Position numbers and translations under genes: made by a program
The notes under the pieces: generated by a model
Seen by the model: only the letters and a program-made list of their open reading frames with translations
The model's database searches: none
What the model was told of the DNA's origin: nothing
Origin: Bacteroidaceae bacterium
GTDB taxonomy: Bacteria > Bacteroidota > Bacteroidia > Bacteroidales > Bacteroidaceae
Direction: 5' to 3'
DNA length: 64,000 nt
NCBI GenBank assembly: GCA_017622815.1
Contig: JAGAQH010000027.1
Span: 62,001-126,000, forward strand
Shown: positions 714-56,459 of the stretch, piece after piece
How the letters are laid out: the number at the start of each line of letters is the position of its first letter
How positions within the stretch are numbered: position 1 is the first letter of the stretch

Positions 714-779
714 ACACGTTGCGAGGCTCATCGGAACACGTTACGAGGCCCATCGCTTCACGTTGCGAAGCCTCACGCT
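714..779. repeat. Three tandem copies of a 22-nt repeat
   Basis: Copies lie at 714-735, 736-757 and 758-779 and share the core ACGTTGCGAGGC, with 4-7 substitutions between copies. The array fills most of the gap between ffh and the hydrolase gene and ends eight bases from the hydrolase stop codon. Its period matches the other 22-23 nt arrays in this window (21745, 23076, 38882, 44732, 56367), although the unit sequence differs. Confidence 0.85.
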
Positions 780-786
780 CCAAGGG

Positions 787-1374
787 TCATATCCCCAGAA
801 GTTTCTCTACCAGAGGTATGATTACCTTGCCAAGCACCACTCCGTTCAGATAGTGTTCGCCCTCAAAGAGGGTCATCTGCCCAGTGCCGTAGTGCTTGCG
901 GAAGTCGGGCTGGCAATTCACGTTCTTGTCCTTGGTGCCGAACAGTCCCCAAACGAGCTGCTTCTCCTCGGGGGTGATGTCCTGGAAACTCTGTTTCTCC
1001 ACCTCCTTGAACTCTGCTATCATCTGCTTGTCCACCTTGAAGTCGCGTGCGCCGTCCTCGCGCTTGTTGCGGAACTCCTGGCGACCCATGCCACGGAAAG
1101 TGAGCAGGCGTGCCATGTGGAAGGAGGGATTCACCAGGATGCGTCTTATACCGTGCAACTGCTCGGCATACATGGCTCCCATGGAGGTGGCGACGATAAG
1201 GTCGGGCTGGTGCTCGCCAACATACTGGCGAAGGTACTCTATGGCGCGAAGCGGTTCTACGGGAACATCAGGACTGAGCACCTGTACCCCCTTGGGATAG
1301 AGGTGATTGCGCAACTGGGTGGCACTACCTGTGCTACCCGCCGATGCAAAGCCGTGTATGTATAATACCTTCAT
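787..1374 (-). CDS. YqiA/YcfP-type alpha/beta hydrolase
   Basis: A 195-residue protein of the YqiA/UPF0227 esterase family, small cytosolic alpha/beta hydrolases of unclear physiological substrate. The start MKVLYIHGFASAG carries the strand-1/oxyanion HGF motif. The nucleophile elbow is TSMGAMYA, replacing the common GxSxG with the YqiA-like S-M-G form. The likely catalytic histidine is in GEHYLNG near the C-terminus. The ATG at 1372-1374 is preferred over an upstream in-frame ATG at 1408-1410, because the upstream one adds 12 residues ahead of the first strand. The stop codon is followed almost at once by a 22-nt tandem array. The family assignment is good; the substrate cannot be told from sequence. 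Confidence 0.85.
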   Translation of the reverse strand: MKVLYIHGFASAGSTGSATQLRNHLYPKGVQVLSPDVPVEPLRAIEYLRQYVGEHQPDLIVATSMGAMYAEQLHGIRRILVNPSFHMARLLTFRGMGRQEFRNKREDGARDFKVDKQMIAEFKEVEKQSFQDITPEEKQLVWGLFGTKDKNVNCQPDFRKHYGTGQMTLFEGEHYLNGVVLGKVIIPLVEKLLGI

Positions 1375-1385
1375 CAGTGTAATGC

Positions 1386-1435
1386 AGAAAAGAAAAGAAC
1401 TCTCCAGCAAAGATAAATCTTTAACCGGAGAGTTC
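1386..1435 (-). terminator. Rho-independent terminator of tRNA-fMet
   Basis: On the minus strand, GAACTCTCC (1427-1435) pairs with GGAGAGTTC (1397-1405). An inner AAAGAT/ATCTTT helix lies in the loop, and a TTTTCTTTTC tract follows. It lies 15 bases past the tRNA 3' end. Confidence 0.85.
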
Positions 1436-1449
1436 CACCACCACTTCTG

Positions 1450-1522
1450 TTGCGGGGGTCCGACTCGAACGGGCGACCTCCAGGTTATGAGCCTGGCGAG
1501 CTACCAACTGCTCCACCCCGCG
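1450..1522 (-). tRNA. Initiator tRNA-Met (CAT)
   Basis: The minus strand folds into a complete cloverleaf beginning CGCGGGGTGGAGCAG. It has anticodon CAT in the loop CTCATAA and the T arm GTTCGAGTC. The first base C faces A at position 72, the unpaired C1-A72 combination that marks bacterial initiator tRNA. The anticodon stem is CCAGG/CCTGG, so the usual three consecutive G-C pairs next to the loop are reduced to A-T, G-C, G-C. CCA is not encoded. A promoter lies upstream at 1576-1584 and a terminator downstream at 1386-1435, so it appears to be a single-gene unit. Confidence 0.93.
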
Positions 1523-1575
1523 ATATTGCGTATCAAACTTGAACGCGACATAGGCGTCGTTTCTTGTTTGCGAGT

Positions 1576-1584
1576 GCAAAGGTA
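1576..1584 (-). promoter_or_regulatory. Bacteroidota -7 box for tRNA-fMet
   Basis: The minus strand reads TACCTTTGC, an exact match to TAnnTTTG, about 54 bases upstream of the tRNA. It diverges from the TetR promoter at 1658. Confidence 0.75.
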
Positions 1585-1657
1585 TGCCTTTTTCCTGATA
1601 CCGCCAAACGTTTTAGTGAAAAATTGCAAAATTATTGCTAATATGGAGGAATTATCG

Positions 1658-1666
1658 TACCTTTGC
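1658..1666 (+). promoter_or_regulatory. Bacteroidota -7 box for the TetR gene
   Basis: TACCTTTGC lies 31 bases before the chosen ATG at 1697. Its position rules out the longer upstream reading frame as the true start. Confidence 0.75.
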
Positions 1667-1696
1667 ACAGAATTACACCTTATATACATATATAGT

Positions 1697-2290
1697 ATGG
1701 CGGTAGAGAAAACAAGGAACAAACTGATAGAGGTGGCACGCACCCTGTTTGCCAAACAAGGCATAGAGGAAACCACGATGAACGACATCGCCCTGGCTTC
1801 CGGGAAGGGCAGGCGCACGCTTTACACCTACTTCAAGAGCAAGGAAGACATCTATGATGCCGTGGTTCAGGACGAACTGGAACTGATGGCACAGAAGATG
1901 GCCGAGGTGGCCCAGCAGGAAATGGACCCCGAGGACAAACTCGTGGCCCTCATATACGCACACCTGCAGGCCATAAAGGACGTGGTGCAGCGCAACGGCA
2001 ACATACGCGCAGAGTTCTTCCGCGACATCTGGCGCGTGAGCCTCATCCGCCAGCGTTTCGACCGCAACGAGAAGATACTCCTGACCACCATACTGTCCGA
2101 GGGCGTGGAAAAGGGACTGTTTGAGATAGACGACCTCTCGCTCATGGTGGACATCATAAGATACTCCGTGCGAGGACTGGAGGTACCGTTCATCTACGGA
2201 CGCATAGCCGACGGCATGCCCAAAGGACTGATACGTGGCGTGGTGCACAAGATAATACACCGCTCACTGAGCAAGAAATACAACAAATAA
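1697..2290 (+). CDS. TetR/AcrR-family transcriptional regulator
   Basis: A 197-residue one-component repressor. The N-terminal helix-turn-helix is typical of TetR: KLIEVARTLFAKQG, then TTMNDIALASGKGRRTLYTYF, then KSKEDIYDAV. The C-terminal two thirds is a helical ligand-binding and dimer domain with no recognised ligand signature. The ATG at 1697 follows the TACCTTTGC box by 31 bases; the reading frame is open much further upstream, but that part covers the promoter and the tRNA. It lies 76 bases before fabG, so control of the fatty-acid/envelope genes downstream is possible but is inference from position only. Confidence 0.88.
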   Translation: MAVEKTRNKLIEVARTLFAKQGIEETTMNDIALASGKGRRTLYTYFKSKEDIYDAVVQDELELMAQKMAEVAQQEMDPEDKLVALIYAHLQAIKDVVQRNGNIRAEFFRDIWRVSLIRQRFDRNEKILLTTILSEGVEKGLFEIDDLSLMVDIIRYSVRGLEVPFIYGRIADGMPKGLIRGVVHKIIHRSLSKKYNK

Positions 2291-2366
2291 GGCCGGCCGG
2301 AGCATGCTCTCCCTGCCGACGACAACAACAAACCATCAGAAAATACCAAACATACCCATAACGACT

Positions 2367-3125
2367 ATGAAACTATTGGAAGGAAAAACCGCCCTCGTAA
2401 CCGGTGCGGCACGTGGTATAGGCAAGGCAATCGCCTTGAAGTTCGCCTCCGAAGGGGCAAACATCGCTTTCACCGACCTGGTTCTTAACGACGAAATGGC
2501 TGCCGGCCTGGAAGCCACACGTCAGGAGATAGAGGCCCTCGGCGTAAAGTGTCTGGCATACGCCGGCAATGCCGCCGACTTCGCACAGACAGAGGAGACC
2601 GTAAAGAAGATAAAGGAAGACTTCGGCACTATAGACATCCTGGTAAACAATGCCGGCATCACCAAGGACGGCCTGATGCTCCGCATGACAGAAGCCCAGT
2701 GGGATGCCGTCATCAACGTAAACCTGAAATCGGCCTTCAACTTCATCCATGCCTGCGTACCCGTGATGATGCGCCAGCGTGGCGGTTCCATCATCAACAT
2801 GGCCAGCGTGGTGGGCGTTCACGGCAATGCCGGTCAGGCCAACTATGCAGCCTCCAAGGCCGGCATGATAGCCCTGGCAAAGAGCGTGGCTCAGGAAATG
2901 GGTCCCAAGGGCATACGTGCCAACGCAATAGCCCCCGGCTTCATTGAAACCGCCATGACCGCAGCCCTGCCCGACGAGGTACGCGAGGAGTGGAAGAAGA
3001 AGATACCCCTGCGCCGCGGCGGACAGACCGAGGACATCGCCAACACCGCCCTGTATCTGGCCAGCGACCTGTCAAGTTACGTTACCGGTCAGGTTATCCA
3101 GGTGGACGGCGGCATGAACATGTAA
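2367..3125 (+). CDS. fabG: 3-oxoacyl-[acyl-carrier-protein] reductase FabG
   Basis: A 252-residue short-chain dehydrogenase that reduces beta-ketoacyl-ACP with NADPH in fatty acid elongation. Visible motifs are the cofactor loop TGAARGIG (residues 12-19), NNAG (94-97) and the catalytic tetrad Asn119, Ser147, Tyr160, Lys164 (YAASKAG). The C-terminus GQVIQVDGGMNM is typical of FabG. The ATG at 2367 gives the standard N-terminus MKLLEGKTALVTG; an in-frame ATG at 2304 would add 21 unmatched residues. It is followed nine bases later by the pseudouridine synthase gene and then tamB-tamL, consistent with one transcript for lipid and envelope functions. Confidence 0.93.
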   Translation: MKLLEGKTALVTGAARGIGKAIALKFASEGANIAFTDLVLNDEMAAGLEATRQEIEALGVKCLAYAGNAADFAQTEETVKKIKEDFGTIDILVNNAGITKDGLMLRMTEAQWDAVINVNLKSAFNFIHACVPVMMRQRGGSIINMASVVGVHGNAGQANYAASKAGMIALAKSVAQEMGPKGIRANAIAPGFIETAMTAALPDEVREEWKKKIPLRRGGQTEDIANTALYLASDLSSYVTGQVIQVDGGMNM

Positions 3126-3134
3126 TCCAAGCAG

Positions 3135-3818
3135 ATGACCGTTCTATACGAAGACAACCATCTGATAATAGTAAACAAACAGGCAGGGGAGATAGTCCAG
3201 GGCGACAAGACCGGCGACACTCCCCTATCTGATATTGTCAAGGACTGGCTGAAGGAGAAGCACAACAAACCAGGCAACGTGTATCTGGGAGTGGTGCATC
3301 GTCTGGACAGGCCAGTGTCGGGCGTGGTACTTTTTGCCAAGACAAGCAAGGCCCTGCCACGCCTGAACAAGATGTTTGCCGAACACGACAAGGTAAGCAA
3401 GACCTATTGGGCGATAGTGCAGAACCGTCCGCAAGCATCCAAAGGCACACTGACGCACTGGCTCACCCGACAGGAGAAGAACAACACGGCACGCGCCTAC
3501 GACCGCGAAGTGCCGGGGGCGAAGAAGGCCGTCCTGGACTACGAACTCATCGCCTCTGGCGACAGGTACCACCTCCTGGAAATACATCTGCACACCGGAC
3601 GGCACCACCAGATACGGTGCCAACTGGCCAAGATGGGATGCCCCATAAAGGGCGACCTGAAATACGGAGCACCGAGAAGCAATCCCGACGGAAGCATCTC
3701 CCTGCATGCCCGCAACCTGACACTGGAACATCCCGTGAGCCACGAGACGATTTCCGTCACGGCACCCGTGCCCGACGACAGACTTTGGCTGGCCTTGTGC
3801 AAAGAGGCAACGAAATAA
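3135..3818 (+). CDS. RluA-family RNA pseudouridine synthase
   Basis: A 227-residue pseudouridine synthase of the RluA/RsuA superfamily, converting uridine to pseudouridine in rRNA or tRNA. The catalytic motif HRLDRPVSG holds the nucleophilic aspartate at residue 58. The LHTGRHHQIRCQLA block and the C-terminal LHARNLTLEHP strand are also family-typical. There is no N-terminal S4 domain, so it resembles the short RluA subgroup (RluC/TruC-like) rather than RluD. The start is nine bases after fabG. The target RNA position cannot be inferred. Confidence 0.9.
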   Translation: MTVLYEDNHLIIVNKQAGEIVQGDKTGDTPLSDIVKDWLKEKHNKPGNVYLGVVHRLDRPVSGVVLFAKTSKALPRLNKMFAEHDKVSKTYWAIVQNRPQASKGTLTHWLTRQEKNNTARAYDREVPGAKKAVLDYELIASGDRYHLLEIHLHTGRHHQIRCQLAKMGCPIKGDLKYGAPRSNPDGSISLHARNLTLEHPVSHETISVTAPVPDDRLWLALCKEATK

Positions 3819-3851
3819 GACACACTACACACACTAACGTCCCCAATCCTT

Positions 3852-6800
3852 TTGAACATCATCCGACGCATATTGAAATGGACAGGCATCACCCTTGGAA
3901 CGGTGTTGCTGCTTCCCGTATTCATAATGGTGCTTCTGTACATACCCCCCATCCAGAACTGGGCGGTACAGAAAGCCATTGGCATAGCCTCTGAGGAAAC
4001 GGGCATGGACATCAGTCTGGAGAAGGTGGGCATCACCCCGCTGCTGGACATAGAACTGGAGAATCTTACCGCCATACAGGAAAACGACACCGTCCTGCAC
4101 ACGGGGGCAGTGATGGTGGACCTGGACTTCGGCAACATCCTCCAAGGGCAATTCGGAATAGAGGGCATAGATATCAGGAACGGAGTCTTTAACTCCCTCG
4201 ACCTCATTCCACAACTCGGAATAAACGGACGCCTCGGTCTGCTGCACCTTGACCGTGAGGACACAGACCTGAAAAACGGTCGCGCACAACTGAGCGGCGC
4301 ATCCATAGAGGGTTGCGACCTGGACATCTGCATGCGCGATACCGTAATAACGGACACAACGGAAAGCGCTCCCCTGCCCTGGACAATAAAGGTGGGACAA
4401 ATAGACATACGGAACAGCCGCATAGGCTTCCGCACGGCGGGAGACACACTTGCCGTAAGTACCGCCATCAGAAACGCACAACTCTCGGGAGGGGACATCA
4501 GTCTGGAAAACGGCATATATGCCGTGAATGCCCTGGGGATAGACATAGACACTCTGCTTCTGTGCATGAAAGACACGGCAGGGGCAAGCACATGCATATC
4601 CCTGCCTGCCACCTCGCTCTCTGCAGAAGGTCTGAGGATGGACACCATGGCCGTAAGCCTGCCGAAGTTCTCCATCAACACCGGCATGCAGGAAAAGCCG
4701 CAGAGCCTCATCAACGGAAACCTGCACATGGACTTCAATGCATTCACTCCCCGGAGCGGAGGTTTCATGGCGGCAAACATCAAGGCATCGCTCTCCCACT
4801 CCGACCTGCTCGGCATAGCCAAGGACTACATTCCCGAAGACCTGGCAAAGGCATACCCTGCCCTACCCCTGAATGCCCACATAACGGCTAACGGCAATAT
4901 CGACTCCATTAACATAGATACCCTGCACCTGCTCATGCCCACCGCAATAGACATAAAGGCAGACGGATACGTTGCAGATGCACTGGCGGAAGGCGGAATG
5001 AGGGCTCACCTACTGTGGGACGCAAGTACCATGAACCTGGACTTCATACGTCGCTATCTGGGACTTACCGGCATTAACATACCGCGCATGAACATGTCTG
5101 CCGACACAAGGGTACATGACAATACATACAAGGCAGACGCACTTATCAGACAAGGCGAAGGAACGTTGCACGCCAACGCATCGCTAGACCTTGACAACAT
5201 GTCGTACATGGCCAGGGCACATGCCAAGGATATAAACATCCGAAACTTCATGCCGGAGGACAGCATCGGACTACTGACCCTTTATGCCGACGTAAGCGGA
5301 CATGGCACAGACTTTCTTTCCAAGGCTACAGGACTGAAAGCGGCAGTGGACCTGAAACACCTGGAATACAAGGACTGGGATGTGGACAATGCCAGACTTA
5401 CAGCCCAACTGAAACGTGGTAAGGCTACGGTAGAACTGCATTGCGACAACGATATCCTCATGGCAAACGCATGCGCCAATGCCAATATAGACAAAAAGGA
5501 TTCCAAGGCCGATTTCTCCCTGTCCATGAACAGGATAAACTTCCAGGCTCTGGGAATAACAAAAGACTCTCTCGTGGCATCCATGACACTAAGCATGGAC
5601 GGCGGCACGGACATGAAGCAGACACACCGTCTGAACGGAAGCGTACACAGCATAGAATTGGCCACCCCCGACACCACCTACTACCCACTGGACCTGAATC
5701 TGGAGGTGAACCTGAACGAGGAGAGCATGCTGGCAAGGACAAACGCCGGCAACATGTGGATTCAGTTCCATTCAGACGAAGGCCTGGACTCACTGATGAA
5801 GAAAACCGGCAACTTCATGCAGGAACTGAACAGGCAGAGAGACGCACACATACTTGACATGCACGAACTGAACAGACGCCTGCCCCTGGTGGACATGCAT
5901 CTGCTGTGCGGCAACAACAACCCTCTGGCAAACATCATGCGTTCCATGCTCGGCACAACCATGACCGAAATGGCCTTCGACCTGACAACGAATCCCGAAG
6001 AGGGACTGAACGGACAGGGCCACATGAACAAGCTGAGAACCGCGGCGGTAGTCATCGACTCCATTTCCTGGAACATCAAAAACATTGCCGAAGGCGTGAA
6101 GATGATGGCAAGGGTGAAGAACGGCCCCAGGAACAAGGTGGTCAACTTCGATGCCTCGCTGAATGCGCTCGTAACGCCCAAGGGACTGGAGAGCAGTTTC
6201 CTGTTCATTGACGGAAAAGGCAACAAGGGCGTGGACTTCGGACTTAACGTGGGCATAGCGGACAGCGCACTGAAAGTGCAACTTACTCCGCTCGACCCCA
6301 TCTTTGCATACCGTCGCTTCAATGTGAATGCCGACAACTTCCTGTCCATCGACAAGTCAAACCACATAAAGGCAGACATGAACCTGCTTGCCGACGACGG
6401 TACCGCCCTGAACCTGTATAGCACGCCGAACGAAACGGCACAACAGGACATCACATTGTCCATCGCCAACTTCAACCTTGGCGAACTTTCACGCGTCCTG
6501 CCCTTCATGCCCATGGTGACGGGCATGCTGAACGGCGACATACATGCCGTGAAGGAGGAAGAACAGGCCACGGTATCGGTGGACATGGACGTGAAGAAGA
6601 TGGGCTTTGAGGGAAGTCCGCTTGGCGACATAGGCATGGAGATGATTTACTTCCCCAATGCCGACGGTTCGCACCTGGTGGACGGAATACTGTCTCAGAA
6701 CAACAGGGAAATAGCCCTGCTGAACGGCAGATACTGGACCAAGGGCGAAGAAGGTCAGATTGAAGCCGAGGCACATCTGCAACGCCTGCCCCTGAACATT

Positions 6801-16188: not shown

Positions 16189-16190
16189 AC

Positions 16191-16260
16191 TATAGGAGTT
16201 ATAGATGCTATAGATTCTATAGAGACTATAGAGATTATAGAGGCTATAGAAAGTTATAGT
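16191..16260. repeat. 9-nt TATAG-phased tandem repeat
   Basis: TATAGnnnn recurs with a 9-base step about eight times between the purL hairpin and the first chromate-transporter gene. TATAG is invariant and the four following bases vary (examples TATAGATGC, TATAGATTC, TATAGAGAC, TATAGAGAT, TATAGAGGC). It ends 14 bases before the ATG at 16275. No TAnnTTTG box is present nearby. Confidence 0.9.
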
Positions 16261-19894: not shown

Positions 19895-21142
19895 ATGGCA
19901 ATCATAAAACCCTTCAAGGGACTACGTCCCCCAAAAGACCTTGTAGAACAGGTACAGTCACGCCCCTACGACGTATTGGACTCTGAAGAGGCCCGCGCCG
20001 AGGCCGAGGGCAACGAGAAGAGCCTTTACCATATCATCAAGCCGGAGATAGACTTCCCCGTCGGTACCAGCGAATATGCACCCGAGGTGTATGCCAAGGC
20101 TGCAGAGAACTTCCAGAAGTTCCAGGACAACGGCTGGCTGGTTCAGGACAAGGAGGACGGATACTATATCTATGCCCAGACCATGAACGGCAAGACACAG
20201 TTCGGTCTGGTGGTATGTGCCTACGTGGACGACTACATGAACGGTGTCATCAAGAAGCACGAACTGACACGCCGCGACAAGGAGGAAGACCGCATGAAGC
20301 ATGTCCGCGTGAACGATGCCAACATGGAGCCTGTCTTCTTTGCCTACCCCGACAATGACACTCTGGCTGCCATCATAGCACGCTATGTATGCAACGAGCC
20401 AGAATATGATTTCACCGCCGCCACCGACGGTTTCCGCCATCAGTTGTGGCTCATACAGGACAAGCAGGACCAGGAGGCTATCACCAAGGCCTTTGCCGAA
20501 ATTCCATACCTGTATATTGCCGACGGTCACCATCGTAGTGCCGCCGCCGCTCTGGTGGGTGCCGAGAAGGCAAAGCAGAACCCCAACCACCGTGGCGACG
20601 AGGAGTACAACTACTTCATGGCTGTCTGCTTCCCTGCAAGCCAACTGACCATCCTCGACTACAACCGCGTTGTGAAGGACCTCAACGGACACAGCAGTCT
20701 GAAGTTCATGTCCCTGCTGGCAGAGAACTTCACCGTAACCCCCATGGGCGAGGCATGCTACCGTCCCGAGAAACTGCACGAGTTCAGCCTGTATCTGGAC
20801 GGAGAGTGGTACAAGTTGGAACTGCTCCCCGGCAAGGCAGACGACAACGACCCCATCAAGTCTTTGGACGTGAGCATCAGCAGCGAACTCATCCTTGACC
20901 AGATTCTGGGCATCAAGGACCTGCGCAGCGACAAGCGCATAGACTTCGTGGGCGGTCTCCGTGGCTTGGAGGAACTGAAGCGCCGTGTGGACAGCGGAGA
21001 AATGCGCATGGCCCTGGCACTCTATCCCGTCAGCATGCAGCAGATCATCAACATTGCCGACAGCGGCAACATCATGCCTCCCAAGGCCACATGGTTCGAG
21101 CCTAAGTTACGTTCCGGTCTGGTGGTACACAAATTGTCGTAA
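19895..21142 (+). CDS. DUF1015-family protein of the serine cluster
   Basis: A 415-residue cytosolic protein of the DUF1015 (COG4198) family. Recognisable features are the N-terminal KPFKGLRPPKDLVEQVQSRPYDVLD, which matches the conserved RP..YDV block, the central YIADGHHRSAAA motif and the C-terminal MPPKATWFEPKLRSGLVVH. The DGHHR motif resembles a metal- or phosphate-binding site, but the biochemical role is not something I can name with confidence. In Bacteroidota the family commonly follows serC-serA, as here, which suggests a role linked to phosphoserine or serine. Its stop overlaps the next start (TAATG). Confidence 0.88.
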   Translation: MAIIKPFKGLRPPKDLVEQVQSRPYDVLDSEEARAEAEGNEKSLYHIIKPEIDFPVGTSEYAPEVYAKAAENFQKFQDNGWLVQDKEDGYYIYAQTMNGKTQFGLVVCAYVDDYMNGVIKKHELTRRDKEEDRMKHVRVNDANMEPVFFAYPDNDTLAAIIARYVCNEPEYDFTAATDGFRHQLWLIQDKQDQEAITKAFAEIPYLYIADGHHRSAAAALVGAEKAKQNPNHRGDEEYNYFMAVCFPASQLTILDYNRVVKDLNGHSSLKFMSLLAENFTVTPMGEACYRPEKLHEFSLYLDGEWYKLELLPGKADDNDPIKSLDVSISSELILDQILGIKDLRSDKRIDFVGGLRGLEELKRRVDSGEMRMALALYPVSMQQIINIADSGNIMPPKATWFEPKLRSGLVVHKLS

Positions 21143-21753
21143 TGAGAGATTCATACAAAGTATTGACAAAAGCAAGCGAGGGAACCTACTCCGAACTGAG
21201 GAGCAAGTTCCTCGCTTTTGCTATACCCGTGCGCACGGCCGAAGAGGCCATGGAGCAGGTGGCGAAGTACCAGAAGGAGTATTTCGACGCACGCCACGTC
21301 TGCTGGGCATACCGGTTGGGTCCCGAGGGAGAGGAGTACCGCTCCAACGACAACGGCGAGCCTTCCGGCACGGCAGGCAAGCCCATACTTGGACAGATGG
21401 TCAGTGCCGACGTGTCCGACCTCATCATCCTGGTGATACGTTATTTCGGCGGAGTGAAACTGGGCACCAGCGGCCTCATCGTTGCCTACCGCACGGCAGC
21501 CGCCGAGGCTCTGGAGGCAGGCGAGTATGCCGAGCGTCTGGTGGAGAAGGAACTGAAACTGACCTTCGGCTACGAGCACATGAACATGGTCATGCGCATG
21601 GTCAAGGACCTGCAGCCACGCATCGTCAGCCAGGACTATAAGGACAACGGCGACATCGTCATGACCATAGCCATACGCCTCTCACTTGTGGAACGTGTGC
21701 ACTCGGCCTTCATTGTCAACGGTCAAAGCCTCGTGAAGGTAGAGGAGTGTTGA
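21142..21753 (+). CDS. YigZ/IMPACT-family protein
   Basis: A 203-residue protein of the YigZ/IMPACT family. The N-terminal UPF0029 domain contains KFLAFAIPV and the family signature NDNGEPSGTAGKPIL, followed by LIILVIRYFGGVKLGTSGL. A short C-terminal DUF1949-type domain follows. Bacterial members are poorly defined; the eukaryotic homologue is a translational regulator that binds GCN1. The start overlaps the DUF1015 stop, so it is the last gene of the serine cluster. The first copy of a 22-nt tandem array runs through its final codons and stop. Confidence 0.9.
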   Translation: MRDSYKVLTKASEGTYSELRSKFLAFAIPVRTAEEAMEQVAKYQKEYFDARHVCWAYRLGPEGEEYRSNDNGEPSGTAGKPILGQMVSADVSDLIILVIRYFGGVKLGTSGLIVAYRTAAAEALEAGEYAERLVEKELKLTFGYEHMNMVMRMVKDLQPRIVSQDYKDNGDIVMTIAIRLSLVERVHSAFIVNGQSLVKVEEC

Positions 21754-21810
21754 CGTGACAACACTGGAGTGTTGATGCGACAACACTCTTCTGTTGATAC
21801 TGCAACAAAA
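21745..21810. repeat. Three tandem copies of a 22-nt dyad repeat over a stop codon
   Basis: Copies lie at 21745-21766, 21767-21788 and 21789-21810. The unit contains the dyad AGTGTTG-N6-CAACACT, perfect in copies one and two and decayed in copy three. The first copy includes the YigZ stop codon (21751-21753). A classical terminator begins 12 bases after the array. Confidence 0.88.
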
Positions 21811-21822
21811 TAACACCCATAC

Positions 21823-21868
21823 GATGGTGCATGCCGGGGCTCACGGACATGCACCATCATTCTTTTTT
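21823..21868 (+). terminator. Rho-independent terminator of the serine cluster
   Basis: GATGGTGCATG (21823-21833) pairs perfectly with CATGCACCATC (21848-21858), followed by ATTCTTTTTTT. Confidence 0.92.
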
Positions 21869-22439: not shown

Positions 22440-23036
22440 ATGTCACAACAAACCCTTGACCTCAGCGAACTGCAGGAACTGAAAGAGCAGTTCAACCTTA
22501 TGGATGCCAAACTGGAAAAGCAGAGAATCATCAACGAGAAGATGCTGGAAAAGTCCATGAAGGAAAACCTTTCACACATAGAACGCTGGTACCAGTACCG
22601 CCTGCGCGTATGCAGCATTTCTGCGCCATTGGTAAGTTTCATCTTCTTAGTAAAGTTCTATGATCAAGGCATAGCCTACTGGGGATTCTGCCTGATGATC
22701 ATGGCCGTAGCCCTGCTGGAACTGTATCTGGACAGGAAAAGTTACCATGCCCTCGACATCAGCAACCTGCCCAACCTGAGCATGGCCCAAGCCACGGAGA
22801 ACGTAATCAGACACAAGAAGTACCGCAGCATTACGAACTGGTTGCTGCTCGTCCCCGGCACTGCCCTCGTGGTATGGACCATCCTTATTGCCAGCAACTT
22901 CACATGGGACCTGCGCATCATTGCCATCACGATATTCACCATGGGGGTCTCCATCCTCTGGGGCCTGCGCCAATCCAAGAAGAACGGCAAAAGGCTGGAC
23001 GATGTGCTGGAGCAAATAGAGAGTATGAGGGAATAA
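22440..23036 (+). CDS. Membrane protein, probable partner of the ECF sigma factor
   Basis: A 198-residue protein. Residues 1-60 form a charged, heptad-rich cytosolic segment (LSELQELKEQFNLMDAKLEKQ). It is followed by four predicted membrane helices (about 62-76, 82-98, 135-152 and 160-176) and a short basic tail. The paired layout, with a cytosolic helical N-terminus directly behind a sigma gene, is what is seen for anti-sigma proteins in Bacteroidota. There is no HxxxCxxC zinc motif, so the assignment is by context only. A 23-nt tandem array begins 39 bases after the stop. Confidence 0.65.
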   Translation: MSQQTLDLSELQELKEQFNLMDAKLEKQRIINEKMLEKSMKENLSHIERWYQYRLRVCSISAPLVSFIFLVKFYDQGIAYWGFCLMIMAVALLELYLDRKSYHALDISNLPNLSMAQATENVIRHKKYRSITNWLLLVPGTALVVWTILIASNFTWDLRIIAITIFTMGVSILWGLRQSKKNGKRLDDVLEQIESMRE

Positions 23037-23075
23037 ACTTTCCCCTTCCCAAGGCACGTCTGTATCCTCAAGGAG

Positions 23076-23190
23076 GACAGGGGCGAGTCACCGAGGGTGA
23101 CAGGGGCGAGTCACCGAGGGTGACAAGGACGAGTCACCCGGGAGGACAAGGACGAGTCACCTGGGAGGACAAAAACAGCGCCTCGGGGAA
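23076..23190. repeat. Tandem 23-nt repeat array (GACAAGG/GTCACC family)
   Basis: Four clear copies lie at 23076-23098, 23099-23121, 23122-23144 and 23145-23167, with a decayed fifth to 23190. The core of each unit is GACAAGGACGAGTCACC, and GGTGAC/GTCACC can pair across units. The array ends in GGGAGGACAAAAA, the same end seen at 38961 and, with one change, at 56446. It lies between convergent genes, just before the DUF5606 terminator. Confidence 0.9.
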
Positions 23191-38881: not shown

Positions 38882-38984
38882 TTTTTGTCCTCCCGGAGAA
38901 CGAGCCCTTGTTGTCCCGATGACAAGGGCTTGTCACCACTGATGACACGCCCTTGTCGTCGGGAGGACAAAAACACGCCCTCAC
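38882..38984. repeat. Tandem 22-23-nt array bounded by inverted ends
   Basis: About four units with step 22-23 carry alternating GCCCTTGT and ACAAGGGC cores (for example GATGACAAGGGCTTGTC). The array starts with TTTTTGTCCTCCCG (38882-38895) and reaches the exact inverse CGGGAGGACAAAAA (38960-38973). It is related to the arrays at 23076 and 56367 and lies between the convergent dnaG and ABC transporter genes. Confidence 0.88.
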
Positions 38985-44703: not shown

Positions 44704-44731
44704 ACTCAGTACCGGTTTTTGTAATGCCGAA

Positions 44732-44808
44732 TCGGTACTGGAGTACTCTCACGTCGGTACTGGAGTACTCTCGTGTCGGTACTGGAGTACCTTCGTGTTG
44801 GTACTGGC
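44732..44808. repeat. Tandem 22-nt array between convergent genes
   Basis: Copies lie at 44732-44753, 44754-44775 and 44776-44797, with a partial fourth to 44808. The unit is TCGGTACTGGAGTACTCTC plus three variable bases, and the dyad GTACT-GG-AGTAC is central in each. Copies differ at only 1-3 positions. It fills almost the whole space between the recG stop (44703) and the stop of the M48 gene (44812); no classical terminator is present there. Confidence 0.93.
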
Positions 44809-44811
44809 CTG

Positions 44812-46086
44812 CTAACAGATTGCGTCAAGACTTGGCACGTAGCACTGCTGTATGGACTCCGCAATGGCGGTGGCAACCTCCATGTCGCTCAGGCCTATGC
44901 TGTTGCCGAACTGGTATATCAGTTCCACTTCTTCCTTGGCTATAATCTTGTCGGAGAGGACTATCTGTATCATATACTGCAGCATCCCTTCCTTAAGGCC
45001 GGGATTTATCTCCAGCATCTTCTGCACAGATTCGTTGAAGATTTCGGCCACATCACCCTTTATTATCTCGTCCAGGAACTCCTTGGGAAATATCTTCAAG
45101 GCAGCAAGCGACTGTATGATCTTGTCATACTCCTCCTTGTTGATATCCTCGTCGGTGCTGGCCACAAGCAGGCCGGCAGAAGCGATGAAGCGTGCCGTGT
45201 GCTCGTCCAGGTCGCTATCGCCTACCTTCAGCAGTATGGATATCAGTTCCTTCATGCCGTTGTCCAGTTCTTCCTTGTCCTTGGCCGTAGCAAAGAGGTT
45301 CAGCGCCTGTACCCTGATAGGGTTTACAGGATGTGAGGCGCGGCTCATACCCTTGTCCTTGAGGAAATAGTCCAGACGCCGGTTGTTGTCGGCAATGAGG
45401 GCCTCTATACTCACGTTCATCTTCATGAGATCCAGTCCTGATGCCATCTTGAAGAAGGCTGTCACGCAGGCATCAAGGTTCTCCACGGCCAGATAGCCGT
45501 AACGGTCGGCAACAAGTTCTGCCAACTGTTCGTGCAGGCGTATCTTGTATTGCAGGGTCACGGGCACGTCGGAATTCGGAGGGAACACAAAGTTTATGAG
45601 CCTGGCCAGGGCAGTGTCTCTATTGATGAGATGTCCCAACTCGTGCCCGACAACAAACCTCAGTTCGTCCTGGGTCATGAGTCCGAAGAGCGCCGAATTG
45701 ATGTTAACGATGTGCGGTTCTTCCTCGTTTTCGGCTGCTACCGAAAAGGCATTCACCGTGGAGTCGCCGGTAATGTAGAAGTCTACCTTTTCCTTGAAGT
45801 CCAGTTTTCCGCACACTTCGTGACACAGGTCGTAGAAGTCCTTGAGCAGGTCCTCCTCCACCTTCAGGCTGTGTCCTTCCATGGCACTGCGCCAATAGGC
45901 ATCGGTATTGGTGGTCTTTATCTTGCGAAGGACTTCCTCCACAACCGTACCTTGCAATGCATTGTATATCTGTTCTCCGATCTGCTTCTCCAACTCAATA
46001 GATGCGGAAAAGCGTCCGTCCTTCTGTCGGTCATCCTTGTCGGTTCCCTTGAACCAGTGCCATAGGCTGTTAGTAGAGGTGTCCAT
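44812..46086 (-). CDS. M48-family metallopeptidase with TerB-like C-terminal domain
   Basis: A 424-residue protein. The zinc site is HELGH (in VVGHELGHLINRDTA), with the third-ligand region HEQLAELVADRYGY. After the peptidase core, residues about 290-420 form a helical domain with acidic motifs (STDEDINKEEYDKI, LSDKIIAKEEVELI) resembling TerB/DjlA-type domains. There is no signal peptide and no membrane helix, so it is cytosolic, unlike HtpX. The start ATG at 46084-46086 follows a TATTTTTG box; the frame continues upstream without good sequence. The substrate is unknown. Confidence 0.83.
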   Translation of the reverse strand: MDTSTNSLWHWFKGTDKDDRQKDGRFSASIELEKQIGEQIYNALQGTVVEEVLRKIKTTNTDAYWRSAMEGHSLKVEEDLLKDFYDLCHEVCGKLDFKEKVDFYITGDSTVNAFSVAAENEEEPHIVNINSALFGLMTQDELRFVVGHELGHLINRDTALARLINFVFPPNSDVPVTLQYKIRLHEQLAELVADRYGYLAVENLDACVTAFFKMASGLDLMKMNVSIEALIADNNRRLDYFLKDKGMSRASHPVNPIRVQALNLFATAKDKEELDNGMKELISILLKVGDSDLDEHTARFIASAGLLVASTDEDINKEEYDKIIQSLAALKIFPKEFLDEIIKGDVAEIFNESVQKMLEINPGLKEGMLQYMIQIVLSDKIIAKEEVELIYQFGNSIGLSDMEVATAIAESIQQCYVPSLDAIC

Positions 46087-49252: not shown

Positions 49253-49295
49253 CAAACTAAACGACATGTCCTGAGGCTTCTTTTAGGAAATTTAG

Positions 49296-52425: not shown

Positions 52426-52466
52426 ATCATATAAGGGGACAGCACCCCAGATTACCATAATATATA

Positions 52467-53012
52467 ATGAACACGCGCGAACAGTTTGAAGCGGTGATGC
52501 AGGAATGCCGCACCCTGTTTTCCAAGAAACTCCACGACTACGGAGCAGCGTGGCGCATAATGCGTCCCGAGTCGGTGACCGACCAGATATACATCAAGGC
52601 CAACCGTATCCGTAGCATAGAAACCAAGGGCGTGACAATGGTAGGCGAGGGCATACGCCCCGAATTCATTGGCATTGTAAACTATGCCCTCATCGGTTTG
52701 ATTCAGTTGGAACTTGGAGCGGCAGAGGTAACAGACGGCATGAGCCCCGAACGTGCACTGGCCGAGTATGACCGCCATGCACAGGAGTGTTTTGAACTGA
52801 TGCTGCGCAAGAACCACGACTACGACGAGGCCTGGCGCTCAATGCGCATCAGCAGTTACACAGACCTCATACTGATGAAGATATTCCGGACAAAGCAAAT
52901 CGAATCTCTCAGCGGAGAGACACTGGTGTCCGAGGGCATAGACGCCAATTACATGGATATGCTCAACTATGCAGTGTTCGGTTTGATAAAATTGACATTC
53001 GGTGAGGAGTAG
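52467..53012 (+). CDS. DUF1599 protein with internally duplicated domain
   Basis: A 181-residue cytosolic protein of the DUF1599 (nucleotide modification associated) family. Two halves are homologous. Half one reads KKLHDYGAAWRIMRPESVTD, then IRPEFIGIVNYALIGLIQLEL. Half two reads RKNHDYDEAWRSMRISSYTD, then IDANYMDMLNYAVFGLIKLTF. The shared HDYxxAWRxMR motif is the likely active or binding site. Function unknown. The end overlaps the next gene by 11 bases, and the gene order to tpiA and folE is typical of Bacteroidota. Confidence 0.85.
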   Translation: MNTREQFEAVMQECRTLFSKKLHDYGAAWRIMRPESVTDQIYIKANRIRSIETKGVTMVGEGIRPEFIGIVNYALIGLIQLELGAAEVTDGMSPERALAEYDRHAQECFELMLRKNHDYDEAWRSMRISSYTDLILMKIFRTKQIESLSGETLVSEGIDANYMDMLNYAVFGLIKLTFGEE

Positions 53013-54174
53013 CAGACTGTTCTCAGTGTTGCGGTGGCTTCTGGTAAATGCATGCCGCATTACCCTTTCTGCATCCCTGATATTCTCGGGAGCAGTGAAG
53101 ATGATAGACCCGCGCGGCACAGAGTACAAGATCAAGGACTATGCCGTGGCATTCGGCTTAGACGAACTGTTGGGCCTGTACATGCCGCTTCTGCTGAGCA
53201 TGGCATTGGCACTGACGGAATTCTGCATGGGAGTGAACCTGCTCTTCGGCAGCAACAGGCGATGGACATCACGTGTGGTGTTGGCGTTCTTCCTGATATT
53301 CACTCCGTTCACACTTTATCTGGCAATAGAGAACCCTGTCAGTGACTGCGGATGCTTCGGCGATGCATGGGTACTGACCAACTGGCAGACATTCGGCAAG
53401 AACGTGGTCCTGCTGACATGCGCCATTCTGGTGTGCATGTATTACAAGTTGCAGACACGCCTGATCAGCGAACACGCACAATGGCACGTGTCGCTCTATA
53501 ATTGGATGTACGCCTTTACGCTGACGCTCTATTGTGTGTACACCCTGCCGGTTATGGACTTCCGTCCCTATCACATAGGTGCAGACATTCATGCCAAGAT
53601 GCAATGGGACGACACGGACAGGATACCTCCCATAACAGACCTGGTAATATCCGACCCCGTTACAGGAGAGGACATGACAGACAGTATAGTTTCGGGCCAG
53701 GGATGGAAGTTCCTCGTCGTGGCACCAAGACTGGAAAATGCCGACGACGGCGTGATGGACAAACTGGCTGAACTGACAGAGTACTGCGAAGACTACGGAT
53801 ACCCGCTTGTGGCGCTGACGGCAAGCAGCGACAGTCTGATAGAGTACTGGCGCGACATAACCGGAGCGGAATATCCCTTCCTCGTCGCCGACGAGATACC
53901 GCTAAAGACCATGGTCAGGAGCAATCCGGGCGTGATACTGCTCAACGGCAGCGTGGTGGCCAACAAATGGGCATCGTCGCAGATACCGGGACAGGACGAA
54001 CTTGTTTCCACGCTGGACGAGATGCCATGGGTGCAGAAACCTCAGTCTACCTATGCAGAAAGGTTCTTCATCCTGCTGTCGTGGTACATCATCCCACTGC
54101 TCGCCTTCACCATATTGGACAAGGTTTGGCTTGGGATAAGGATATTGAGAGAGAGAAAGAAACAAGATACATAA
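53002..54174 (+). CDS. BT_3928-like protein: DoxX/MauE-type membrane domain plus periplasmic thioredoxin-like domain
   Basis: A 390-residue membrane protein. Four N-terminal helices (about residues 10-155) carry the DoxX/MauE-like block FSGAVKMIDPRGTEYKIKDY and a CGCFG motif (DCGCFGDAWVLTNWQTFGKN). A further helix is followed by an extracytoplasmic domain (about 205-345) that reads like a thioredoxin-fold AhpC/TSA relative without a clear CxxC, and a last helix near 360. The start is GTG at 53002, inside the end of the DUF1599 gene. The CGC motif suggests disulfide exchange, but this is inference. Confidence 0.75.
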   Translation: MRSSRLFSVLRWLLVNACRITLSASLIFSGAVKMIDPRGTEYKIKDYAVAFGLDELLGLYMPLLLSMALALTEFCMGVNLLFGSNRRWTSRVVLAFFLIFTPFTLYLAIENPVSDCGCFGDAWVLTNWQTFGKNVVLLTCAILVCMYYKLQTRLISEHAQWHVSLYNWMYAFTLTLYCVYTLPVMDFRPYHIGADIHAKMQWDDTDRIPPITDLVISDPVTGEDMTDSIVSGQGWKFLVVAPRLENADDGVMDKLAELTEYCEDYGYPLVALTASSDSLIEYWRDITGAEYPFLVADEIPLKTMVRSNPGVILLNGSVVANKWASSQIPGQDELVSTLDEMPWVQKPQSTYAERFFILLSWYIIPLLAFTILDKVWLGIRILRERKKQDT

Positions 54175-54195
54175 ACCTTTTAAAAACTATTGAAA

Positions 54196-54954
54196 ATGAG
54201 AAAGCACATTGTAGCAGGCAACTGGAAGATGAACAAGAGCCTGCAGGAGGGTGTAGCACTGGCTACTGAACTGAAGGACATGCTGGCTGCCGAGAAGCCC
54301 AATTGCGATGTTATCATCGGTACTCCCTTCATCCACTTGGCTACCGTTAGCGAGTTGCTGAAGGACAGCGTAATCGCCGTTAGCGCAGAGAACTGTGCAG
54401 ACAAGGAGAGCGGTGCATACACCGGTGAGGTTAGCGCTTCTATGGTTAAGAGCACTGGTGCCGAGTACGTTATCCTCGGTCACTCAGAGCGTCGCGAATA
54501 TTATCACGAGACTCCCGAGATCCTGAAGGAGAAGGTTGACCTGGCTCTGGCAAACGGCCTGAAGGTTATCTTCTGCATCGGCGAGAGCCTGGCAGAGCGC
54601 GAGGCAAACGAGCAGGAGGCTGTATGTAAGGCTGAGTTGGCTGGCAGCGTATTCCACCTGACCGCTGAGCAGTGGAAGAACGTTGTTATCGCTTACGAGC
54701 CCATCTGGGCCATCGGCACCGGCAAGACCGCTACCGCCGAGCAGGCTGAGGAAATCCACGCCTTCATCCGTTCTTGCGTTGCTGAGGTTTACGGTGCTGA
54801 GGTTGCCGACGAGACCAGCATCCTGTATGGTGGTTCTTGCAAGGCAAGCAATGCTCCCGAACTCTTCGGCAAGCCCAACATTGACGGTGGTCTGATTGGT
54901 GGCGCTTCTCTGAAGGCTGCTGACTTCAAGGGCATCATCGACGCTTGGAACTAA
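54196..54954 (+). CDS. tpiA: Triose-phosphate isomerase
   Basis: A 252-residue TIM-barrel enzyme interconverting dihydroxyacetone phosphate and glyceraldehyde 3-phosphate. Active-site residues are Lys11 (AGNWKMNK), His96 (ILGHSERR) and the Glu in [22 protein letters not shown] and the [12 protein letters not shown] phosphate loop are present. The ATG at 54196 ([11 protein letters not shown]) is preferred to one two codons upstream. Codon use is strongly biased, in keeping with high expression. Confidence 0.98.
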
Positions 54955-54984
54955 TTAAAGAACATTTACGGCACCATAGTGCGG

Positions 54985-55010
54985 AGGGCCTGTCAGAGGC
55001 AGGCCCTTTC
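54985..55010 (+). terminator. Hairpin after tpiA
   Basis: AGGGCCTG (54985-54992) pairs with CAGGCCCT (55000-55007), followed by TTC only; a weak terminator. Confidence 0.5.
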
Positions 55011-55043
55011 GCATGAAGGCCGTACAACAAACAACACCATTTT

Positions 55044-55553
55044 ATGAAGAGAAAAATCTTCATCTCCTTCCTCCTGACGCTACTGTGTTCAGTCATGGCT
55101 CATGCCCAGCAGGAGATAACCATGGACAGCATCCTCCGCACCATCCAGCAAGAGGACAGCGCCATCGTTGTTAAGGAAAAACGGGCCAACACCCACTCCA
55201 AACGTATCCGCGTGAACGGCTACCGTGTGCAAGTCTACTACGGAGGCAACAACCAGAAGTCCAAACTTCAAGCACGACAGATGGCACAAAGGGTGAAGAT
55301 ATGGTTCGAGGACCTGTCCGTATACACCAGCTTCTCCTCTCCGCATTGGATATGCCGCGTAGGCGATTTCCAGACACGCGAGGAGGCAATGGAAGTACTC
55401 CAGGCCATGCGCGAATCCGGCCGTTTCCCCAAGGCTATTATAGTGAAGAGCAAGATTAACATTACAGAAGATGAACTCAGAAGAGAAGAACCTGACTCCT
55501 GTGCAAGCAGAAATACAACAACATGTTGCACGGATTCTGGAATTATTGGGTGA
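55044..55553 (+). CDS. SPOR-domain protein
   Basis: A 169-residue exported protein: signal peptide [21 protein letters not shown], then a SPOR domain (about residues 60-135, [22 protein letters not shown] to [21 protein letters not shown]) that binds denuded peptidoglycan glycans. After the domain the frame continues through the first 83 bases of folE, adding a cysteine-rich tail ([16 protein letters not shown]) with no resemblance to SPOR proteins. Either this tail is read as such, or the gene has lost an earlier stop. Confidence 0.85.
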
Positions 55554-56061
55554 AGATCCATCAAGAGAGGGGCTGCAGAGAACACCGCTACGCGTGTCAA
55601 GAGCCATGACCGACCTGACCAGAGGATACGAACAGGATCCTGTGGCCATATTAAAGAGCGCCATCTTCCATGAGGAAGGTTGCAACCAGATGGTCATAGT
55701 GAAGGACATCAACTTCTACTCTCTCTGCGAACACCACATGCTTCCCTTCTACGGACGTGTTCATGTGGCATACATCCCCAATGGCGAAGTTACGGGACTG
55801 AGCAAGATACCCCGTGTGGTGGATGTGTTCAGCCACCGCCTTCAGTTGCAGGAGCGCCTGACCAAGCAAATCCGCGAGGCGATACAGGAGGCTCTGCATC
55901 CCCAGGGAGTGATGGTAGTAGTAGAGGCCCAGCACATGTGCATGCAGATGCGTGGCGTGGAGAAGCAGGGCAGCATCACCACCACCAGCGACTTCTGCGG
56001 GGCATTCAACCAGCACAAGACACGCGAGGAATTCCTTTCACTCATCAGGATGAGAGGATAG
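55471..56061 (+). CDS. folE: GTP cyclohydrolase I
   Basis: A 196-residue enzyme opening the folate pathway (GTP to dihydroneopterin triphosphate). The zinc-site motif [35 protein letters not shown] with the third ligand Cys, and the QERLTKQI block are conserved. The start [19 protein letters not shown] lies inside the SPOR gene, giving an 83-base overlap in another frame. The folE frame is certain from conservation. A terminator follows at 56111. Confidence 0.96.
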
Positions 56062-56110
56062 ACAAGACCGGCAGAACTGCCGTATCCACCCTGATTGCAA
56101 CACAAGACAA

Positions 56111-56152
56111 ACGGTGCGCCGACATATATGTTCGTCAGCACCGTATTTTTTT
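56111..56152 (+). terminator. Rho-independent terminator after folE
   Basis: ACGGTGC (56111-56117) pairs with GCACCGT (56138-56144), followed by ATTTTTTT. The remaining gap to 56615 contains a tandem array at 56367 and no gene. Confidence 0.85.
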
Positions 56153-56366
56153 GTGGGTGGAGAGTGTCCGGTAGACCTTATTCAACAATAGTTGACTATC
56201 CTTAGAAGCAGACCCCTCCACCCTGGGAAACGGAAGCGGGAACAGAGACAACTATCTGCCTGCATCATAATGATTTTTCAACATCCGCACACTCCCATGT
56301 CTGAGTTGCGATGCTCCCCGCCGTACAACCTGCGTAACTCTACACACAAACGCTCGGCAGGGCACC

Positions 56367-56459
56367 TTTTTGTCCTCACGACAACAAGGGCGAGTTGTCA
56401 TTGATGACAAGGCGCTGTCCTCACGACAACAAGGACGAGTCACCCGGGAGAACAAAAAT
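56367..56459. repeat. Tandem 22-23-nt array bounded by inverted ends
   Basis: About three full units step by 22-23 bases, with ACAACAAGGGCGAGTTGTC and ACAACAAGGACGAGTCACC as examples. A 22-base stretch at 56429-56450 is identical to 23123-23144. The array begins TTTTTGTCCTC (56367-56377) and ends GAGAACAAAAA, one base from the exact inverse. It lies between the convergent folE and gtrA genes. Confidence 0.88.

Follow-up and report, generated by a model that had tools for sequence, protein, structure and literature searches.

The 64-kb window, the whole stretch of bacterial DNA analyzed here, contains real tandem arrays whose constant period is far from chance. Pooled with the arrays of related genomes, they revealed a common unit design, a 22-bp palindrome that is often centered on CACG/CGTG and whose arms differ between species. 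The arrays are best read as phase-locked tandem sites for a putative dimeric DNA-binding protein, and judged from sequence the chances of this reading appear evenly balanced. The period, a palindromy above that of shuffled sequences, the recurrent center, the constant phase, the placement, and the lack of strand bias were all observed in this analysis. The arrays of the window are listed in Table 1.

Table 1. Tandem arrays of the window with their units, dyads, ends, and match rows in the source genome (some match rows overlap one another or count both strands of a single place).
Feature	Position	Strand	Units and period	Dyads or ends	Own-genome match rows
Array D	712..779	.	about 3 units, period 22	palindrome centered on CAA-CACG-TTG; 8/11 symmetric pairs	6
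Array C	21744..21810	.	2-3 units, period 22	AGTGTTG(n6)CAACACT	8
Array A1	23071..23190	.	GTCACC family, 4.4 units, period 23	dyads GTCACC(gag)GGTGAC	44
Array A1, right end	23163-23175			GGGAGGACAAAAA	
Array A2	38882..38973	.	diverged GTCACC-type; half-sites step about 22-23 (by eye); no TRF row		
Array A2, inverted ends	38882-38896 and 38960-38973			TTTTTGTCCTCCCGG and CGGGAGGACAAAAA	
Array B	44720..44812	.	3.5 units, period 22	dyads GGTACT(gg)AGTACC	11
Array A3	56367..56458	.	diverged GTCACC-type, 3.2 units, 61% matches	6/11 symmetric pairs	
Array A3, ends	56367-56376 and 56443-56458			TTTTTGTCCT and CCCGGGAGAACAAAAA	

TRF recovered five of the six arrays claimed in the original prediction, with rows at 712-779 (period 22), 21744-21798 (22), 23071-23172 (23), 44732-44807 (22), and 56371-56441 (22, 61% matches). 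The array at 38882 had no row at a score of at least 30, and its TTGTC half-sites, about 22-23 bases apart, were recognized by eye. In 20 locally shuffled copies of the window, three TRF rows reached a score of at least 50, two of them with a period of 20-24. The gene calls, made with our own script, placed four arrays between convergent genes, and all six touched or followed a gene 3' end, as predicted. The array at 714 had been described as lacking a dyad; however, a CAA-CACG-TTG dyad was present. Nor was the unit sequence specific to its locus, as had been claimed, because each unit type of the four arrays searched genome-wide belonged to a family dispersed in the source genome.

At lag 22, the intergenic DNA of 53 loci from relatives contained 49 clusters, compared with none in one dinucleotide shuffle and none in coding DNA. 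The neighboring lags in the same intergenic DNA gave 4 (lag 20), 3 (lag 23), 8 (lag 24), and 32 clusters (lag 21, heptad repeats included). The intergenic DNA of genome G012, from stretches picked before any unit search, had 16 clusters at lag 22, one at lag 21, none at lags 15-20 and 23-43, and nine at the harmonic of 44. In the source genome, nine clusters were found at lag 22 and 15 at lag 23, in a biased sample in which about half of the stretches were picked for GTCACC matches. The period had been given as 22-23; in the relatives it was mostly 22, and 23 was mainly that of the GTCACC family of the source genome, which is found in the window with this period and with dyads lacking CACG. 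A broad spread of periods had been named as the sign of coincidence, and instead a few values dominated (7/14 and 22 in the relatives; 7, 9, 10, and 22-23 in the source genome). Each array of the window, taken singly, is short and weak, as a coincidence of unrelated short repeats would have it, but this explanation was refuted by the lag spectra and the genus-wide line at 22, and its probability is negligible. The stretches of the recG loci, the genus sample (63 kb of intergenic DNA), the order sample (47 kb, several stretches being very short), and the first stretches of G012 were chosen independently of the arrays. About half of the own-genome stretches and those from G005, G008, G128, G024, and C12 and C16 of G012 were chosen because units were known there, and G076 was taken for its high count. 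All compared genomes were drafts, and the named ones were mostly MAGs.

The phase between successive units was kept in spite of about 3.5 differences per unit. Five genomes were scanned with a matrix: among 185 successive hits within 90 bp, 176 were exactly 22 apart and the other nine were 44 or 66 apart. Successive units thus rarely left the 22-bp phase, and single units were near background; the matrix was trained on the same arrays and scanned in all phases, with one block shuffle as the control. When the core was sought with a free gap of 4-30, one step of 21 was seen by eye among the matches listed, all others being 22, and the reversed-pattern control gave none. At loci fetched from this search, all 54 of 54 steps of the same core were 22. 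Indel-free arrays as defined by TRF (115/167 at period 22) were no commoner than in other repeat classes, and this measure did not discriminate. The proposed selection on geometry, or else a mechanism that sets it, was supported, since the period stays at 22 while the families turn over, the phase is kept, and the dyads exceed those of shuffled sequences. The main rival explanation is a neutral or selfish palindromic minisatellite resembling REP/BIME, in which slippage would change the unit number, template switching in quasi-palindromes would maintain the symmetry of the units, gene conversion would spread the families, and the placement would merely reflect avoidance of promoters and genes. 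Such a minisatellite is possible, though on the whole unlikely. It is consistent with the different unit numbers found among close relatives, with the species-specific families, and with the strand symmetry expected from a mutation process at the DNA level. However, slippage has no reason to pick 22 in many families or to hold the phase through so many differences.

Consensus units, one per array, were pooled from 151 arrays under 38 genome labels, which are not all distinct (L078 is G005, so that one array was counted twice, and further overlaps outside the sampled stretches are possible). The best dyad axis paired at least 14 of the 22 positions in 85/151 units, compared with 19/151 after shuffling. 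CACG/CGTG was present in 94/151 units (18.9±4.0 in shuffled units), and it was also the top tetranucleotide when one array was taken per genome label (19/38, compared with 5.8±2.1). In the best-pairing CACG register of each array, seven of the nine symmetric pairs of arm columns exceeded the shuffles (z 3.4-6.1), and the outer two did not. Unit copies departed from their array consensus in 3% of cases at the C and G of the center, in 11-13% at the A and C that these enclose, in 9-23% in the arms, and in 25-34% at the outermost columns. Both the recurrence of the CACG center across otherwise different families and the low variability of its C and G argue against the minisatellite. Unit-by-unit compensation of the arms within arrays was absent, with 1434 of 2380 cells paired compared with 1427.9±9.2 after permutation, and selection for hairpins was not supported by this measure. 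When units were shuffled over all arrays of a genome, the pairing fell to 1338.3±13.9, and none of 500 shuffles reached 1434. G076 was the only one of five genomes in which arm swaps among array consensuses had a clear effect. The evidence for the dyad therefore lies mostly between families and genomes, where the shuffles ignore kinship. Some dyad excess was found at other periods as well, which is in keeping with the minisatellite, although it was weaker in these intergenic arrays (mean z 0.74±0.18) than at period 22 (1.35±0.17). The array ends were marked: the first unit started with AA in 24/62 rows and the last unit ended with TT in 24/62 (61 elements, one G008 locus being entered twice), compared with 5/225 and 11/225 at internal junctions.

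In the operator model, each unit would be a 22-bp palindrome spanning about two helical turns and binding one dimer of the putative protein. Cooperation between neighboring dimers, all placed on one face of the helix, would account for units that come in runs of 2-9 and are very seldom single or out of step. The protein would make its core contact with the central CACG/CGTG (generally C-R-Y-G) and the flanking AA...TT, and the remaining arms would drift, being re-matched to a protein or paralogue set whose specificity changes with the species. The protein, its cooperativity, and its function are the parts of this model that we infer; the fixed spacing expected of an operator array was found in the arrays. 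A fixed specificity predicts constant arms, yet the arms vary, and the GTCACC family departs from the model in both period and center. Simple operator arrays would likewise give no reason to expect the marked AA/TT ends. ArgR boxes and pho boxes are comparable in that they are palindromic or repeated sites, at steps of about 21-22 bp, to which protein oligomers bind cooperatively. These belong to particular promoters and have a fixed sequence, whereas the present arrays are many per genome and change their arms. The targets of LAGLIDADG homing endonucleases are 22-bp pseudo-palindromes (9+4+9, with four central bases); they are single sites, unlike the tandem units described here.

The arrays were biased toward gene 3' ends, as originally claimed, but this was not a rule, as 22/151 arrays (one counted twice) lay between divergent genes; five divergent gene pairs flanking arrays were checked with Pfam. 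The array rate per kb was 0.77 in convergent, 0.36 in tandem, and 0.30 in divergent gaps. Arrays of period 22/44 were in convergent gaps in 48/153 cases, compared with 15/194 for other intergenic repeat classes (Fisher p 1.8e-8; periods 21, 23, and 46 were included only if heptad-type), and the lack of this preference in other repeats of the same genomes is a further point against the minisatellite. In tandem gaps, 63/78 arrays were nearer to the upstream stop codon, which is compatible with the minisatellite and also with tandem RNA hairpins in 3' UTRs acting as terminators or as signals of RNA stability or processing. For such hairpins, which have little probability, the A/T-marked ends would look like a bidirectional terminator, the first 40 of the 61 elements folded somewhat better than shuffles did (median z -2.0), and terminator-like hairpins were commoner at tandem-gap ends with an array (26/85) than at those without (123/690). 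Nevertheless, in convergent gaps they were equally frequent with (42/108) and without (80/222) an array, and arrays also occur between divergent genes. The center showed no strand preference in tandem gaps (CACG sense 23, CGTG sense 25), G-U pairs were not in excess there (46 G-T compared with 50 A-C mismatches), the end marks had no sense polarity (5' AA 17 and 3' TT 12 of 34), and the GTCACC family had ends of opposite polarity. A DNA site is favored over RNA hairpins because the center has no strand bias and G-U pairs are not preferred. An Rfam search at the arrays gave no matches. A replacement of intrinsic terminators by the arrays was not supported, as array-bearing gene ends were not poorer in terminator-like hairpins. 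Thus, of the two mechanisms proposed in the original prediction, the better fit is a dimeric protein bound in tandem, and RNA hairpins are disfavored by strand, G-U pairs, divergent gaps, and terminator counts. The arrays keep out of coding DNA, are densest between convergent genes, and in tandem gaps are found close to stop codons; operator arrays so placed would therefore probably serve in the architecture of the chromosome or as a transcriptional or topological boundary, and not in the control of particular promoters.

A sequence search for the GTCACC family found it in none of 36 congeners, and the families are species-specific. The stretches sampled contained about 30-150 of these intergenic arrays per megabase. 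Their dispersal within a genome and their recurrent ends would also fit non-autonomous mobile elements, MITE-like as BrickBuilt, with a tandem core, inverted ends, and a transposase acting in trans. Another point for mobile elements is that Y1-type transposase matches (PF01797) were found in the array-bearing congeners G013, G022, G027, and G035; such matches were also found in 19/24 genomes of other families. The array-bearing genomes G000, G005, G008, G012, G016, and G024, all incomplete drafts, had none; a RAYT-type transposase is thus not required, though some members of the genus have one. The sister species G012 and G024, about 90% identical, kept arrays in place at 10/10 comparable loci, some of them decayed, with no empty site (for the other arrays no flank could be compared), and this persistence also speaks against the minisatellite. 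By eye, G008, G012, and G128 had no common leader or tail beyond the units, and termini of the BrickBuilt/ISPg type (four, with at most one mismatch) lay within 500 bp of at most 2/163 arrays. Mobile elements are therefore improbable, mainly because empty sites and termini are missing. One core was also absent from viral contigs, and together with a search for the GTCACC array in phage records this gave no support to phage carriage. A CRISPR array was rejected, as the units abut and have no unique spacers.

The arrays resemble REP/BIME elements in being extragenic, palindromic, clustered, and present in many copies. For REPs, passages of PMC3733652 name proposed roles in supercoiling, termination, and mRNA stability, and describe super-families tagged GTAG and CGTC, the latter without a dedicated transposase. 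In the present units these tags, counted anywhere in the unit, were not enriched (12 and 20 of 151, compared with 23.0 and 19.1 shuffled); the units were also contiguous at an exact 22-bp period, singles were near background, and Y1/RAYT was dispensable. Porphyromonas gingivalis belongs to the same bacterial order as the present genus. Its BrickBuilt elements, as described in PMC4596501, are likewise intergenic tandem units without spacers, of 23 nt, in many copies and with a unit number that varies by strain; 22-nt repeats in strain W83 are also mentioned. BrickBuilt also has IS5-type termini and leader and tail segments as long as about 300 nt (PMC4596501), and these were not found at the present arrays. 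In that paper it is a single sequence family, present in P. gingivalis and P. gulae, whereas here one period is shared by many families throughout a genus.

An open-access literature search, judged from titles, abstract openings, and passages of PMC4060949 and PMC3733652, gave no paper that seemed to describe such an array class. Bacterial interspersed palindromes are usually known by their sequence; here, the invariant across the genus is a geometry, with one period and often one center. A protein that reads the arrays, should there be one, would be a candidate for a nucleoid or boundary factor of a large group of gut bacteria, represented in this analysis by draft genomes; the arrays would then offer a natural experiment in how a protein and its DNA sites co-evolve. 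We tentatively suggest, as a rather doubtful extension, a lineage-wide, fast-evolving chromosome-organizing system, in which a dimer would coat DNA in 22-bp steps and the species-specific arms would co-evolve with this protein around a conserved CRYG center. By analogy, such a system might in effect be a bacterial counterpart of fast-changing satellite DNA and the protein that binds it. If nothing reads the arrays, they are an unusual example of a phase held through many substitutions, for which neutral minisatellite models would have to account.

In the window, one gene ends at 21753, and its stop codon is overlapped by array C, whose center was CGTG in copy 1 and TGCG in copy 2. A hairpin at about 21822-21868, after this array, was spotted by eye and was not called by the terminator scan. 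Array A3 had a GTP cyclohydrolase I gene on one side and a convergent gene on the other, and array A2 was also present in the near relative L051, with two bases differing. Array B, in the gap where recG and an M48-type peptidase gene converge, had one CACG or CGTG in every unit, and in L051 it consisted of about 1.5 units.

TRF detected five of the six arrays with a 22-23 nt period that had been described in the window, and the array at 38882 was visible by eye alone as TTGTC half-sites with steps of approximately 22-23 nt. The observation was largely right and larger in extent than the sequence alone had shown, and the proposal that the geometry is constant stands. As a control, 20 shuffled windows gave two rows with a period of 20-24. 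Four arrays were flanked by convergent gene pairs in our own gene calls, as stated in the original prediction, and Pfam was run on ten of the proteins flanking the arrays. The sole Rfam calls in the window were two tRNAs. The claim that unit sequences were specific to each locus was wrong: when the arrays were used as queries against the whole genome, 44 match rows were found for the GTCACC family, 11 for the GTACT family (array B), 8 for the AGTGTTG family (array C), and 6 for the array at 714 (D), some of which overlap or represent both strands of one place. The GTCACC array had no matches in 36 other species of the genus or in 24 genomes from other families of the order.

Arrays in the window (own gene calls and Pfam) and further repeats observed in fetched stretches (L) and genomes (G)
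Feature	Location	Description
D	712-779	immediately downstream of the stop codon of a UPF0227 gene
C	21744-21810	starts within the last codons of UPF0029 gene 21142-21753
A1	23071-23190	convergent gap, gene 22440-23036 (without Pfam match) and DUF5606/DUF6852 gene
A2	38882-38973	convergent gap, dnaG and ABC transporter gene
B	44720-44812	convergent gap, recG and M48-type peptidase gene
A3	56367-56458	convergent gap, GTP cyclohydrolase I gene and another gene
Other intergenic classes, own genome	window 16190-16259; L031-L050	period 9 (CTATAGAGA- and TCGGAGTAT-type), period 10 (AGAGGANNNN-type), heptads (AAACGGA)
Heptads (7/14 nt), relatives	L051-L130, G genomes	frequent, intergenic; seldom convergent (2/90), in contrast to 22-bp arrays
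Second 22-bp family, G012/G024	e.g. L226 6158-6232; L276 9624-9684	GGTTAACC centre without CACG; coexists with the CACG family, adjacent at some loci
Terminal units	L265 15985-16072; L288 14256-14387	tendency towards CTAG/CTGCAG-type centres and AAAAC...GTTTT outer ends
22-bp arrays, different genus of the family	L313 170-226; 2978-3025	ACATTGTATG-type units
23-bp arrays, another family of the order	L204 8231-8298; 9647-9736	one family, CTCACAAG.TTGTCA-type; one array called between convergent genes
42-bp intergenic repeat, one relative	L054 13661-14034	~9 copies

The 22-bp period is characteristic of the clade. Self-match clusters were counted at each lag for three kinds of DNA: intergenic, intergenic after one shuffle, and coding. 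At 53 recG-region loci from relatives, lag 22 gave 49 intergenic clusters versus none in shuffled or coding DNA. Intergenic lags 20, 23, and 24 at these loci gave 4, 3, and 8 clusters, and lag 21 gave 32, heptad repeats included. Lag 22 gave 18 intergenic and no coding clusters in 20 further genus genomes (one stretch each) and 3 clusters at 27 more distant loci. In 20 stretches taken from genomes of the order outside this family, it gave 1 cluster. In the own genome (434 kb, partly picked on GTCACC matches), 9 clusters were found at lag 22 and 15 at lag 23. The intergenic DNA of one relative, G012, in stretches picked before units were searched for, gave 16 clusters at lag 22, 1 at lag 21, 9 at the harmonic 44, and none at lags 15-20 and 23-43. 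In 12 short stretches sampled outside the genus but within the family, 22-bp arrays were found in one genus (L313, two arrays) and in L318, a stretch fetched because an array was known there.

The steps were nearly invariant. The core CACGTTAAGT with a free gap of 4-30 matched in 19 of 121 genus genomes, in which the reversed control gave no matches. Among the matches listed, one step was 21 and the rest were 22 (by eye), and in the loci fetched from that search all 54 steps were 22. With the shorter core CACGTTAA in other sampled stretches, steps within 60 bp were 22 in 78 cases and 44 in three. When five genomes were scanned with a matrix, the spacing between successive hits was exactly 22 in 176 of 185 cases and 44 or 66 in the remainder; a laxer threshold gave 188 of 199 at 22, with three odd spacings. 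Isolated hits were near background (intergenic, 16 versus 7 shuffled; coding, 27 versus 19).

The period-22 set contained 151 arrays under 38 genome labels, two of which are one genome, with one array present twice. The best dyad axis paired at least 14 of 22 positions in 85 of the 151 units versus 19 in shuffled units, and CACG/CGTG was present in 94 versus 18.9±4.0. With one array per label, a statistic that ignores kinship, CACG/CGTG was found in 19 of 38 (5.8±2.1 shuffled) and mean palindromy was 12.58 (10.62±0.32 shuffled). When the 94 CACG-aligned arrays were each taken in the best-pairing register, seven of nine symmetric column pairs exceeded the shuffles (z 3.4-6.1), and the outer two did not. 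Examples of arms seen in different genomes are TTAA/TTAA, CCG/CGG, and CAA/TTG. The dyad excess was weaker in intergenic arrays with other periods. Of the window arrays, this design was matched by D, with CACG, and by B, every unit of which has CACG or CGTG. Array C matched it partly, one copy having CGTG and another TGCG, and no clear match was seen for the GTCACC family. Each of 340 units from 86 arrays was compared with its own array consensus: the central C and G differed in 3%, the A and C between in 11-13%, the arms in 9-23%, and the outermost columns in 25-34%.

The array ends were marked. In six genomes, the first unit started with AA in 24 of 62 array rows versus 5 of 225 internal junctions, and the last ended with TT in 24 of 62 versus 11 of 225. 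In tandem gaps, these marks showed no sense polarity (AA in 17 and TT in 12 of 34). CTAG or CTGCAG centres were frequent in terminal units (by eye). The polarity of the ends was reversed in the GTCACC family (TTTTTGTCC...GGACAAAAA): of 29 loci, 3 had both ends and 20 had a single end in the surrounding ~150 bp, compared with 0.25% and 2.3% of random windows, respectively.

We favour, at about even confidence, the reading that the arrays are putative tandem dimer sites on DNA; a neutral palindromic minisatellite is a less likely explanation. In 78 tandem-gap arrays, the sense strand carried CACG in 23, CGTG in 25, both in 6, and neither in 24, and mismatches were G-T in 46 and A-C in 50. Terminator-like hairpins, scored by our own heuristic, which may score array ends as terminators, were equally frequent at array-bearing and other gene ends in convergent gaps (42/108 versus 80/222) and commoner with an array in tandem gaps (26/85 versus 123/690); the array start preceded the hairpin in 35 cases and came after it in 33. 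Arm changes inside one array showed no unit-by-unit compensation. Permuting units over all the arrays of each genome reduced pairing, but arm swaps among array consensuses had a clear effect in only one (G076) of five genomes.

Among known kinds of element, Y1/RAYT appears not to be required for the arrays, because no match was found in six array-bearing draft genomes (G000, G005, G008, G012, G016, and G024). Four others with arrays (G013, G022, G027, and G035) had matches, as did 19 of the 24 genomes from other families. BrickBuilt-type MITE termini lay close to no more than 2 of 163 arrays. One array core had no match in viral contigs, and the GTCACC array had none in phage records. No description of the array class was found in open-access literature, judged from titles and abstracts; REP families (PMC3733652) and BrickBuilt (PMC4596501) are the nearest described classes, as far as excerpts of these papers indicate.

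Placement at gene 3' ends held as a bias and failed as a strict rule. The array rate per kb was 0.77 in convergent, 0.36 in tandem, and 0.30 in divergent gaps, the last two being similar, and 63 of 78 tandem-gap arrays were closer to the upstream stop. Five divergent-gap arrays were checked with Pfam on both flanks, for example between genes for a FAD-binding fumarate-reductase-type protein and B12-dependent methionine synthase. Convergent placement was found for 48 of 153 period-22/44 arrays versus 15 of 194 repeats of other intergenic classes (Fisher p 1.8e-8). Between the sister species G012 and G024 (~90% identical), paired sequences read by eye showed an array or decayed array in both at 10 of 10 comparable loci, the other arrays on those contigs being without comparable flank, and unit number or arms were altered between the species. 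The recG 3' end carried 3.5 units in the own genome versus ~1.5 in a near relative (L051), and period-22 arrays of different sequence occupied it in several other relatives.
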